From Gemmatimonadaceae bacterium (GTDB lineage: Bacteria; Gemmatimonadota; Gemmatimonadetes; Gemmatimonadales; Gemmatimonadaceae), in NCBI GenBank assembly GCA_035533015.1, contig DATLUQ010000035.1, positions 1-64,000 of the forward strand: a DNA stretch of 64,000 nt, given 5' to 3'. Positions 3,166-6,745 of the stretch are shown piece by piece (the first letter of the stretch is position 1; each line of letters starts with the position of its first letter). A model generated the notes under the pieces. That model was not told the DNA's origin, did not search any database, and saw nothing but the letters and a program-made list of their open reading frames with translations. The translations under genes and the position numbers were made by a program.

Positions 3166-4116
3166 TCAGCCTGAAACTGGCAAGGACACGTGTTCGGATT
3201 CAAACAGCTTGCCACCGTCACTGAGGCTGAGCCTCTGTAGGCAGTAGAGCTGCCAGTAGCGACGCCACACGTCCTCTGTCGCGGGGAGGTAGGCGACGTC
3301 AAGCTCCATCGCCTCGGCCGCTTGACGGTTTATGACCTTCCCATGCGTCAGCCAGTGGTCAGTATCGATTAGCTTCGCTGCTACCGATGTGTAGTTGCCT
3401 TTGTCCCGAAGCATGCCTGTCTTGAGCTGGTCCTCAGCGAGTTTTTGAGAGCGCCTATGGACGGCTTCAAAGAGCTTCAGAGTGCCGGGATCGAGCTTGT
3501 CGAGCATCATTCGAGCGACGGGGTCCGTCGGGTTGGCCCGGAGTGCCTCGGCGTGCTGTCCGTACGCGTCGAGGTAGCTCTTCACCGAGTGGGCCACACG
3601 ATTGCCGTTCGCGTCTGCCACGACGATTTGCGGGTCGATGGGCCCTAGCTCGGACGTGTCACTCATCACGATGCAATCGGCGCCAATCGCCATAAGCGTG
3701 CCGGCACTCTTCGCGAAGTCCGGCACGATAACGCGAAGTCGCCCATTCCCGACCCAGTTCCGTAGGAGCGTGACGAGTTTCTCAGCGGCATCGATGTCCC
3801 CACCGCCCGTGTGCAGCAAGAGGTCGATGTTTGAGCCCCTCTGGACGTTGTGAACCAGGTCTGCAAAGAAAACGACGTCGTCGCGGTCGATTGATGACCG
3901 CGGACCGCAGACGTAGCAGAGGAGACAATTCCCCTCGACTTCTTGGATTTCCCTTATGCGCTCCTGACGGTGATATCGGGCCGCATGAATTGCCTGATAC
4001 ATCGGCGTCTTCGCCGGTCGTGTGGAGAGCGGCGTACCGGCGTCCTCGCGACCCTCGGTCAATGGTTCTCCTCTTGGCCCAGGGGGCAAGGCCGACCCCT
4101 CTTGATTCAAACCCAT
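3166..4116 (-). CDS. Clp-fold serine protease, SDH (serine dehydrogenase proteinase) type
   Basis: The product is 316 residues from ATG 4116, overlapping the end of the upstream gene by 10 bases. It matches the SDH/SppA-like branch of the ClpP/crotonase fold. Visible motifs are LLLHTGGGDIDAAEKL (TGGG at 103-106, oxyanion region), the AKSAG nucleophile motif with Ser137, and SELGPIDPQ at 155-163. There is no signal peptide, so it should act in the cytoplasm. Residues 64-70 hold three cysteines (CLLCYVC). It is the last of five minus-strand genes whose others are ubiquitin-like conjugation factors, so it may cut or process conjugates; that role is inference. An earlier ATG at 4149 would lengthen the overlap. 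Confidence 0.85.
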   Translation of the reverse strand: MGLNQEGSALPPGPRGEPLTEGREDAGTPLSTRPAKTPMYQAIHAARYHRQERIREIQEVEGNCLLCYVCGPRSSIDRDDVVFFADLVHNVQRGSNIDLLLHTGGGDIDAAEKLVTLLRNWVGNGRLRVIVPDFAKSAGTLMAIGADCIVMSDTSELGPIDPQIVVADANGNRVAHSVKSYLDAYGQHAEALRANPTDPVARMMLDKLDPGTLKLFEAVHRRSQKLAEDQLKTGMLRDKGNYTSVAAKLIDTDHWLTHGKVINRQAAEAMELDVAYLPATEDVWRRYWQLYCLQRLSLSDGGKLFESEHVSLPVSG

Positions 4117-4427
4117 TTGACCCGTCCGCTCGTGATAAAGAAATGGCACCGACCAACTGGCCCCAAGGCATCGATGCTTGGTGAGATCGACAGTTTACGT
4201 CCATGAGCGAGGCGCCATACTGGCCGGCGACGCTCATCAAGATTCACTAGAATGCGATGATTGTTGCGGCAAGGGCAGTCAAAGCTCAACCACTTCGGCG
4301 TCTTTCGGTCTCCGACAAGAACCGCGGCCCGCGGCGGCAGGCGACCCGGTACGTCATCCGCGGCTTCGACTACGCCGACGACCCGCCAGGACCACCATGG
4401 CCACCACTCCCAAAAACGCAGTCTCAT
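4107..4427 (-). CDS. DUF6527-type small metal-binding protein of the ubiquitin-like operon
   Basis: The product is 106 residues. The ATG at 4427 overlaps the stop of the JAB-E1 gene as ATGA. A tryptophan-rich N-terminus precedes a conserved core: KWLSFDCPC (Cys51, Cys53) with His57, then RPVWRL, then SISPSI (81-85) and GRCHFFITSGRVKW with Cys94 and His95. This pattern matches DUF6527 proteins found beside bacterial E2/E1-JAB/ubiquitin-like genes. Cys51, Cys53, Cys94 and His95 or His57 could hold zinc. A peptidase or deconjugating role has been suggested for such proteins as far as I know, but nothing in the sequence proves it. Confidence 0.78.
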   Translation of the reverse strand: MRLRFWEWWPWWSWRVVGVVEAADDVPGRLPPRAAVLVGDRKTPKWLSFDCPCRNNHRILVNLDERRRPVWRLAHGRKLSISPSIDALGPVGRCHFFITSGRVKWV

Positions 4428-5806
4428 TGCGACCACGTTTGCTCGAGAAACGGTGTCGTGATCCCAAGTCCCACCTTGCCGGCAGCCTCATGACAATAGT
4501 GCCCAATTCGCGGCTCGGCGCGATTTGTGGAGATCTCCCGCTCGTGCATCCGAAGAAGAACTTCGCTCGGTCGCGGGCTCGGACCATAACCAATAAGGCG
4601 CTCCAGCAGCTCGCAAATTGCCGCGGCCGCCACGGCAGTGGTGAAGCTAACCACAGCGGGCTCTACGCCTCCGAGTGCAGGAGCGTACCCCTCTTCAGCT
4701 CGTCGCTTCCGTTCGTCGGGCGTCAGAAGCTCCGACGCTGCGCGCCTCAGATTGATCCGTCCACGACACACGAGACACGCCTGCCCCGGTACCAAAGTAG
4801 TAACGCGCCCGTCGATCCCGGCCACTCGTGAATGAGCATCTGCACTAAGAAGGACGCCGCAGTCAATGACGGGTAGCATCATGTATGTGGCAAGCCGCGA
4901 TAAGACCAGCCGGCCTGCATTGTCATCGGTGCACCCGAATAGGACGTCGCAATCAGTCAACGACTCTGCCGTCGATTGGACGCAGATGCTCGAACGAAGC
5001 TGATCGACCTGGACCGAAGGATTGATGTCGCGCAGATGAGCTCCGACAACTTCAACTTTGGGTGCGCCTACTTGCGCAAGCGTCGAACCATAGAGGCGTG
5101 TGACGTTCGACGCGGTCAGCTCATCCGGATCCACGAGGGTGAATTGACGCACACCTAATCGAGCCAATTGTTCGGCAACACTCGATCCAGTACCTCCGCA
5201 GCCGATGATGCCCACTCGTAGCTCGTCAAGCGTCGCCTGCATGGCGGGCCCGAAGGCTCGAATGTTGCGATCGAACATGGCGTGTTCAGAGCGCTGGTGC
5301 CTTTCGAACGATGATAGAGCCTGGAGTCGGTCGCCGACGACCTGGATCCGATCGAGTGCCCATCTAGTGTCATCGGACGACCAAATACTACCAGTGAATG
5401 AGAGTGTGTCCGACGTGGGCGCGATGACCATGCTGACGTAGTACGGGCTGCCCGTGCGCAGTCGAAAAACGTCAATCAGCTCCGAATCAACATCGTGGTC
5501 GTGCCGACTGGGGACGGGTCGTGAGCCAACTCCAGGGTGAGTGTGAAGCCAAACGGCGGCGGCTTGCATATTCGCGGCTTCGCCAAGCGCGTGCACATAG
5601 CCCGAGGATCGGATCGAGAGGCCATCGGCCTCCCGTCGAGCGTACGCATCCTCGTTGACCCAAAGCAGCCGGCGCCCGAGCAAACGAGGCCCGGACTTCG
5701 TGCTCACGACAGATGCCAACAGAACTCCTGCGGTTTCTACGGGAAGCCGCGCGGCGCGATTCAGCTCGGCGAAGATGGCGTCGCTCACGACTAGCGTTGA
5801 GGTCAT
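4424..5806 (-). CDS. JAB/JAMM protease-E1 activating enzyme fusion
   Basis: The product is 460 residues. The start at ATG 5806 overlaps the E2 stop as ATGA, which decides it over upstream ATGs inside the E2 gene. Residues 1-140 are a JAB/JAMM isopeptidase domain with Glu24, His88-Thr-His90, Ser100 and Asp103; the gap from HxH to Ser is nine residues rather than the usual seven. Residues about 190-400 are a ThiF/E1 domain: GCGGTG at 202-207, VDPDEL with Asp226 and Asp228, Asn234, Arg237, Lys250, and CTDDN at 292-296. Cys344, Cys347 and Cys438 with nearby histidines may bind zinc or serve in transfer. It would activate the small ubiquitin-like protein as an adenylate and also remove it. Confidence 0.93.
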   Translation of the reverse strand: MTSTLVVSDAIFAELNRAARLPVETAGVLLASVVSTKSGPRLLGRRLLWVNEDAYARREADGLSIRSSGYVHALGEAANMQAAAVWLHTHPGVGSRPVPSRHDHDVDSELIDVFRLRTGSPYYVSMVIAPTSDTLSFTGSIWSSDDTRWALDRIQVVGDRLQALSSFERHQRSEHAMFDRNIRAFGPAMQATLDELRVGIIGCGGTGSSVAEQLARLGVRQFTLVDPDELTASNVTRLYGSTLAQVGAPKVEVVGAHLRDINPSVQVDQLRSSICVQSTAESLTDCDVLFGCTDDNAGRLVLSRLATYMMLPVIDCGVLLSADAHSRVAGIDGRVTTLVPGQACLVCRGRINLRRAASELLTPDERKRRAEEGYAPALGGVEPAVVSFTTAVAAAAICELLERLIGYGPSPRPSEVLLRMHEREISTNRAEPRIGHYCHEAAGKVGLGITTPFLEQTWSQ

Positions 5807-6183
5807 TGAACGCATCGAACCAGCTCTCGTCGGATCAATGCGACGAAACTCTCGAGCGTGTCGATCCCTGAGCGCCATTGACCTGTGCTGAAGTGTCGCG
5901 ACCAGCGTTGCCAAGTGCGACCAAGGTGATTTTCAAACGTGTCAGCCGCCTGGATCGGGCGGCCGTCGGCGCGGCGCAGCGGCGGATCGAACCACCACAT
6001 GTCAGGAGGCACGTCGGGATAGCCGGGGTTCAAGCGCAGGAGGAGATCCGCGCGCTCCCGGTCATAGCCGAGTGGCACCTGAAAACCAGCCAGCACAACG
6101 CACGTCATGTTCGCTTCAATCGCGACGCGGTGTTCGATAATCCGCTCACCAAGGTACTGGAGATCGATTGCCGGAAGAGTCAT
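5803..6183 (-). CDS. E2-like protein (prokaryotic E2 family E)
   Basis: The product is 126 residues, starting 6 bases after the ubiquitin-like gene's stop. The layout follows the Prok-E2_E family: a beta-meander with DLLLRLNPGYPDVPPDMWWFDPP (46-68), then DTFENHLGRTWQRWSRHF (81-98) and a last helix beginning GIDTLESF. Only two cysteines exist, Cys28 in an early strand and Cys124 near the end; none falls after the WWFDPP segment where a classical E2 keeps its catalytic cysteine. His86 and His97 in the NHLGRTW...RH block look conserved-type residues. It probably carries or positions the ubiquitin-like protein after the E1, but by a non-classical mechanism. Confidence 0.8.
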   Translation of the reverse strand: MTLPAIDLQYLGERIIEHRVAIEANMTCVVLAGFQVPLGYDRERADLLLRLNPGYPDVPPDMWWFDPPLRRADGRPIQAADTFENHLGRTWQRWSRHFSTGQWRSGIDTLESFVALIRRELVRCVQ

Positions 6184-6189
6184 ACGGTC

Positions 6190-6456
6190 CTAACCGACGT
6201 ATCGGCCTGGATTGATGTGTGCGGGGGCAGTGAAAAACCGGGCCCCGTCGCGAATCTCAACAACGGTCCCGTCGTCGATCTTTCGATCCGCGCCGCCGGG
6301 CACCACTTCGAAGAGATCTCGATCCTGAGAAATCGGCGGAGTGGGCAGTTGTCGCAGTTCCGTCCCCGTCATTGCCGACGCGGTGACTGTGTAGTGCACA
6401 CGATCAATCTGAATTTGACGGCGTTCAGGTTGCTTCTCGTGATCCGCGGTGACCAT
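6190..6456 (-). CDS. Ubiquitin-like protein (single multiubiquitin-family domain)
   Basis: The product is 88 residues with ATG at 6456 and an AGGAG site (plus-strand CTCCT at 6464-6468) about 8 bases before it. After a polar N-terminus, residues 13-85 fit a beta-grasp domain of the multiubiquitin family: IQIDRVHYTVTAS, MTGTELRQL, DRDLFEVVPGG and DGTVVEIRDGARFFT. The chain ends NPGRYVG, so the C-terminal residue is already glycine and would need no trimming to be adenylated. Only one domain copy is present, whereas many relatives have tandem copies. As first gene of the operon, 6 bases before the E2-like gene, it is the expected conjugated modifier. Confidence 0.78.
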   Translation of the reverse strand: MVTADHEKQPERRQIQIDRVHYTVTASAMTGTELRQLPTPPISQDRDLFEVVPGGADRKIDDGTVVEIRDGARFFTAPAHINPGRYVG

Positions 6457-6478
6457 CTCGACTCTCCTGTTCGGTGGC

Positions 6479-6536
6479 GTGATACCACGGTATCATAGAC
6501 GTTGACAGGAACGGTGTCAAGGTGGTAAGGTATCAC
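6479..6536. promoter_or_regulatory. Divergent promoter with interleaved -35 boxes and GTGATACC operators
   Basis: On the minus strand, TTGACA (plus-strand 6515-6520) and TATGAT (6492-6497) are separated by 17 bases, a near-consensus sigma-70 promoter for the ubiquitin-like operon. On the plus strand TTGACA lies at 6502-6507, with a weak -10 near 6525-6531 for the regulator gene. The two -35 boxes form an inverted repeat with a 7-base gap. GTGATACC at 6479-6486 with GGTATCAT at 6489-6496 makes a near-perfect palindrome over the operon's -10, and GGTATCAC at 6529-6536 repeats the half-site just before the regulator's ATG. The divergent ribbon-helix-helix protein is the likely ligand, giving joint autorepression. 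Confidence 0.75.
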
Positions 6537-6538
6537 GC

Positions 6539-6745
6539 ATGAAACCAGCCAAGGCGATGACTGTTAGACTCTCCCCCGAACAGGCAGAGGCGCTAGAAAC
6601 CGTGGCCGCGGTCGATGATCAGCCGATTGCGGAGGTGATCCGGGCGGCAATCGCGGACCATATTGAGAAGCGCCGACGGGACCGCCGATTCCAAGACAGC
6701 CTTGAGAAGCGGATTCAGCGGGCCAGCCAAATGCTCAACAAGTAG
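6539..6745 (+). CDS. Ribbon-helix-helix (CopG/Arc-type) transcription regulator
   Basis: The product is 68 residues. Residues 6-12 (AMTVRLS) are the beta ribbon, 13-25 the first helix (PEQAEALETVAAV) and 30-43 the second (IAEVIRAAIADHI), as in CopG/Arc regulators and many antitoxins; the C-terminus is basic and helical. It is transcribed divergently from the ubiquitin-like operon and is not followed by a toxin-like gene, so control of the operon is the likelier role. There is only a weak AAGG 8 bases before the ATG, and the predicted transcript start lies close to the ATG, so the message may be nearly leaderless. Confidence 0.85.
   Translation: MKPAKAMTVRLSPEQAEALETVAAVDDQPIAEVIRAAIADHIEKRRRDRRFQDSLEKRIQRASQMLNK

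Follow-up and report, generated by a model that had tools for sequence, protein, structure and literature searches.

In Bub operons, conjugation of the ubiquitin-like protein (Ubl) proceeds by oxyester chemistry. Type 6e operons, as described by Iyer et al. in 2006, comprise a polyUbl, an E2/RWD-like protein without the cysteine, a JAB-E1 fusion and the metal-binding protein Y (PMC1779556). That description included no SDH-type Clp-fold protease, and the terms "ClpP" and "serine protease" are absent from it. A review refers to "a specific protease" in Bub operons but describes it no further (PMC12687455). Here, we report a distinct and horizontally spread Bub subtype in which such a protease forms the last gene of all intact copies that we found.

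Gene content and layout of the operon

The window, a 64,000-nucleotide stretch of Gemmatimonadaceae DNA, encodes on its minus strand (ORF calls and Pfam matches) a Ubl, an E2-like protein, a JAMM-E1 fusion, a DUF6527 protein and the protease, in that order, with a gene for a ribbon-helix-helix (RHH) regulator lying divergently (Table 1). The E2/E1 and E1/DUF6527 junctions are ATGA overlaps of 4 nt each (starts at ATG 5806 for E1 and ATG 4427 for DUF6527), and the protease ATG at 4116 overlaps the DUF6527 gene, with its stop at 4109-4107, by 10 nt. An alternative start at TTG 4110 would give a 4-nt overlap resembling the ATGA overlap of about 23 relatives. A preliminary description of this DNA had placed the protease start inside the end of the DUF6527 gene on the same strand and considered the two translationally coupled, which was borne out beyond the window: in nearly all loci, the start overlaps or touches the DUF6527 gene, within -13 to +5 nt of its stop. 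Two minus-strand ORFs beside the module (972-2018 and 338-985) had no Pfam match.

Table 1. Features of the protease-bearing Bub operon, in coordinates of the window
Feature	Position	Strand	Evidence
SDH-type Clp-fold serine protease (predicted fold), 316 aa, last operon gene	3166..4116	-	ATG 4116; PF01972 54.2 bits
Codon of putative nucleophile Ser137 (KSAGT)	3706..3708	-	invariant in 29 sequences; aligns with PH1510-N Ser97
Codon of Asp161 (ELGPIDPQ)	3634..3636	-	invariant in 29 sequences
Codon of His258 (THGKVI)	3343..3345	-	invariant in 29 sequences
DUF6527 protein ("protein Y" of Iyer type 6e), 106 aa	4107..4427	-	PF20137 59.2 bits; alignments A7, A9
JAMM (JAB)-E1 (ThiF) fusion, BubCD type, 460 aa, JAMM motif HTHPGVGSRPVPSRHD	4424..5806	-	ThiF 134.4 bits, Prok-JAB
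E2-like protein (Prok-E2_E, BubB type), 126 aa, without conserved Cys	5803..6183	-	119.6 bits
Ubiquitin-like modifier (Multi_ubiq, one domain), end INPG-RYVG	6190..6456	-	36.2 bits; C-termini of 42 Ubls
Putative divergent promoter/operator, GATACCGTGGTATC repeat	6457..6538	.	TTGACA (6520), 17 nt, TATGAT (ends 6492) on the minus strand
Divergent ribbon-helix-helix (RHH) regulator, conserved in module	6539..6745	+	RHH_1 23.1 bits; alignment A5; 31/35 loci

Among solved structures, the best match of the E1 was Citrobacter BubCD (6.1e-25); the E2 matched the solved Citrobacter BubB (1.2e-9), and the Ubl score for Multi_ubiq (PF14452) exceeded the cut-off of 24.5 bits. The sole cysteine shared among the E2 proteins (C28) is Asn in one locus (L014). 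The JAMM motif HxHP...SxxD is kept in every intact E1 of protease-bearing operons, and D104 of BubCD, the residue changed in a PDB entry (D104A), is the JAMM aspartate by position. With its Multi_ubiq Ubl, Cys-less E2/RWD-like protein, JAMM-E1 fusion and DUF6527 protein, the operon contains the genes of Bub/type 6e operons and, judged from these sequences, is a Bub operon of Iyer type 6e.

In the DUF6527 alignments, Ser84 and His95 (numbered from ATG 4427) are invariant, and the Cys adjoining His95 is not kept in all Bub clades, a pattern that argues against a simple zinc finger and fits a Ser-His enzyme. Ye et al. reportedly described, from Bub operons, a family of serine proteases that use a Ser-His dyad, which Ser84 and His95 would fit. 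However, DUF6527 had no match among solved structures, its predicted fold giving no convincing PDB match, and we therefore keep a protease activity of DUF6527 as a lead only.

Between positions 2900 and 6900 of the window, the sole promoter-like site lies upstream of the Ubl gene; it is a consensus match, and such matches were no more frequent than in shuffled sequences. GGTATC/GATACC repeats were found in the RHH-Ubl intergenic region of 27 of 31 loci, compared with about 1.3 in shuffled sequences, where they adjoin a TTGTCA/TTGACA box, and are probably the RHH operator lying over the operon promoter. The G+C content drops from about 0.70 to 0.60 across the module, and neither the E2 nor the protease occurs in three congeneric genomes, so that the module looks like an acquired island.

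Linkage of the protease to the operon

On plasmids, the seven records with a full-length protease relative coincide with the seven whose E2 and E1 are closest; the whole operon is present in each of the six that were examined closely, one copy being broken. Among genome contigs, we found 32 protease relatives, 28 of them in loci with the operon in identical gene order; the four without it are three distant stand-alone relatives (34-39% identity; L043, L045 and L047) with unrelated neighbours, and one broken fragment (L041). A six-gene set that keeps its order over dozens of loci is well beyond chance. Carriers belong to seven phyla (Pseudomonadota, Actinomycetota, Chloroflexota, Acidobacteriota, Planctomycetota, Spirochaetota and Gemmatimonadota). 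The protease scan of viral contigs returned no relatives, the E1 scan of these contigs returned four matches, all distant E1s, and phage records held distant relatives only.

Sampling anchored on E1 or E2 avoids the bias of fetching loci by their protease. Anchored on E1, the seven plasmid records with an E1 identity of at least 50% were the seven protease carriers (next E1, 36.5%), and among 395 Gemmatimonadota genomes, the protease was present in four of four close operons (E1 <1e-180) and beside none of the ten distant E1s (1e-40 to 1e-72), some of which lie near contig ends. Close operon relatives without the protease were not found, save copies that are broken or truncated where a contig stops. 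A tree of 46 E1 rows places the protease-bearing E1s in a single clade (support 100/100), and on it presence of the protease requires one change, compared with 10 in shuffles. Pairwise divergence of the protease correlates with that of E1 (0.81), E2 (0.82) and DUF6527 (0.84; 0 of 2000 permutations each). In the protease tree, L085 branches among the Bub proteases, a placement that we ascribe to a long-branch artefact (branch 7.9).

Clustering of neighbouring genes over 35 loci recovered the six module genes in 31-35 loci; the next most frequent were only a Fic-domain gene and its small partner, beside 11 of the 35 (L010, L011, L012, L013, L020, L026, L027 and L030, among others). No gene downstream of the protease recurs in these loci, so the module ends there. 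Neither does an ATPase or unfoldase gene recur beside the module, in agreement with the preliminary description, which had seen none in the operon; a partner might be encoded elsewhere.

Most other Bub operons lack the protease, which therefore marks a Bub subtype. The preliminary description did not know it as a standard part of such operons; among loci with a protease relative, 28/32 in genomes and 7/7 on plasmids have the operon in one gene order. In that description, the link was to be seen as accidental if relatives of the operon almost never carried the protease and its transcript was separate; rarity of the protease is found across Bub operons generally and not inside the clade. An accidental neighbour, as the many Bub operons without a protease and the commonness of the SDH family in genomes might suggest, is barely credible, being effectively refuted by the strictness of the linkage, the constant gene order and overlap, the parallel divergence and the restriction to one clade, and we ruled it out on linkage, congruent divergence and E1-anchored sampling. 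Taken together, these results support the protease as a real, co-inherited and translationally coupled fifth component of the operon (sixth counting the RHH regulator).

Among the broken copies are L014, on a Microbacterium plasmid, where E1 and protease are both split, L041 in Subtercola, where the protease is a fragment, and L044 in Bradyrhizobium ivorense, where it is disrupted.

Protease family and candidate role in the pathway

The protease scored above the Pfam gathering score of 31.3 bits for SDH_protease (PF01972), and at 67.6 bits fell below the curated cut-off of 250 of the NCBIfam equivalog NF047768 ("Clp_like_SDH"), and so belongs to a divergent subfamily. A profile match to PH1510-N (5.9e-7) aligns Ser137 with Ser97, the residue mutated in 6m4b, and so puts Ser137 at the nucleophile position. 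In 29 protease sequences, the most divergent of them 34% identical to the window protein, R50, G105, G106, K113, A135-K136-S137-A138, E156-L157-G158, D161, Q163, H258, W284, W288 and E306 are invariant. These residues would provide a GG oxyanion loop (G105, G106) and a catalytic order of Ser137-Asp161-His258, unlike the Ser-His-Asp order of ClpP; a Ser-Asp-His triad is used by the Pfam SDH family. The AlphaFold model of the protease (pLDDT 91.1) resembles PH1510-N (3viv; VIA Z 14.0, 3.6 Å over 179 residues) and many ClpPs (Z 13.5-13.9), and the predicted fold is of the Clp/crotonase type, similar to ClpP and PH1510-N. Both the SDH-type Clp-fold assignment and the choice of Ser137 as active-site residue in the preliminary description are thereby upheld. 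The N-terminal ~35 residues are variable and modelled with low confidence, whereas the C-terminal extension is common to stand-alone relatives and is therefore not a Bub-specific adaptor; no Ubl-binding region could be shown in the protease.

Comparison of the C-termini of 42 Ubls revealed that those of protease-bearing operons carry TAPxxINPG, in which INPG never varies, and then a tail of variable sequence, and those of operons without the protease mostly have TEG-type ends, likewise in tails that need trimming. Since tail type and protease mark one clade, SDH could be a second modifier protease, adapted to this clade's TAPxxINPG tail, that trims the Ubl precursor after INPG or strips the Ubl from targets. 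We consider this rather unlikely: a processing enzyme is already present, given the intact JAMM motif and the correspondence of BubCD D104 to its aspartate; DUF6527 may be another, and similar tails are processed by operons without SDH. The suggestion that the protease matures the modifier is accordingly weakened, and SDH as a stand-in for a lost JAMM was ruled out, the motif being intact in every intact E1. Ubl maturation should thus not need SDH, which leaves a downstream role, on conjugates, on their targets or under control by the Ubl.

On these sequence grounds, we give about an even chance that SDH serves this Bub subtype as its dedicated proteolytic effector. RHH // Ubl-E2-JAMM.E1-DUF6527-SDH forms a single co-inherited unit whose genes overlap and follow one conserved, probable promoter/operator region. 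In this reading, the JAMM domain, possibly together with DUF6527, would expose the INPG end of the Ubl, which E1 and E2 would then conjugate to targets; SDH would act downstream, either cutting or degrading Ubl-marked proteins or being recruited or switched by the Ubl, and would do so without a dedicated unfoldase. Lacking an unfoldase, the protease could degrade folded proteins only to a limited extent, and limited cleavage is as likely as destruction. The interpretation in the preliminary description is therefore partly supported, "tag-and-destroy" and the substrates being what we infer.

A latent toxic protease, in which a cell-harming SDH is restrained by Ubl conjugation or by forming a complex with E1/E2 and freed on infection or stress, would also suit the effector position at the operon end, the mobile module with its own RHH regulator and the neighbouring Fic-type pairs (11/35 loci). 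Although Bub operons are considered putative immune pathways, their protection against phages has not been demonstrated (PMC13373217), and we regard such a toxic role as clearly unlikely. By analogy with CapP, which cleaves CapH, SDH might instead cleave the RHH repressor and so switch the operon on. This would accord with the near-constant presence of the RHH gene and with CapH+CapP, a protease-controlled repressor pair known beside other Bub operons (PMC13373217), but two loci (L046 and L073) retain the protease with no RHH gene detected, and the protease is last in the operon rather than adjoining the regulator, making this very improbable. The likelihoods given for the effector role and for its rivals belong to overlapping readings.

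One gene set across at least seven phyla suggests a compact bacterial tag-and-cut system. We tentatively suggest, while thinking it less than probable, that the six genes form a self-sufficient, mobile tag-and-cleave system in which Ubl conjugation hands targets directly to the coupled Clp-fold protease, with no unfoldase. Such a system would possibly, and with similar doubt, correspond in bacteria to ubiquitin-directed proteolysis, having arisen separately from the proteasome and from Pup. If tagging does lead to cleavage, plasmids and islands of seven phyla would carry a bacterial E1-E2-Ubl proteolysis route unrelated to Pup and the proteasome. For the effect of Bub conjugation on its targets, the protease-linked subtype offers a direct handle through Ser137.

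Comparison with known systems

The Bub operons of Ye et al. 2026 (cited in PMC13373217), reportedly 544, share with this module the Ubl, the BubB-type E2, the BubCD-type JAMM-E1, DUF6527 and the order of these genes. Compared with them, the module adds the SDH protease, has an RHH regulator in place of CapW, CapH+CapP or CapK+CapS, and has a Ubl that ends in INPG, with one or two Ubl domains and no fusion to E2. A Bub operon on a Citrobacter braakii plasmid (L086; Enterobacterales), whose BubCD is close to the solved one, has CapK/CapS and no SDH gene, and its CapK and CapS accessions are those named in PMC13373217. Among other Bub loci without SDH, one (L050) is adjoined by a subtilase and AAA ATPase pair and another (L066) by a BrxL-like gene, which was ruled out as a tandem effector because it lies on the opposite strand.

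With type 6e polyUbl operons (PMC1779556), the module has in common the polyUbl, the Cys-less E2/RWD-like protein, the JAB-E1 and the metal-binding protein Y. Stand-alone SDH proteases (PF01972) and PH1510-N/NfeD share the Clp fold and the KSAGT serine with the window protease. PH1510-N differs in being membrane-bound and in using a Ser-Lys dyad. Both Bil (BilABCD) and the Pup-proteasome system use a Ubl or Ubl-like tag, and Pup feeds a protease. To our knowledge, the Bil protease is a JAMM enzyme (BilC) and Bil has no Clp-fold member, whereas Pup has an unrelated fold and uses an ATPase-proteasome. Although the tables of the primary Bub paper may list it, what is new in an otherwise already known Bub pathway is the SDH protease, absent from the 2006 description.
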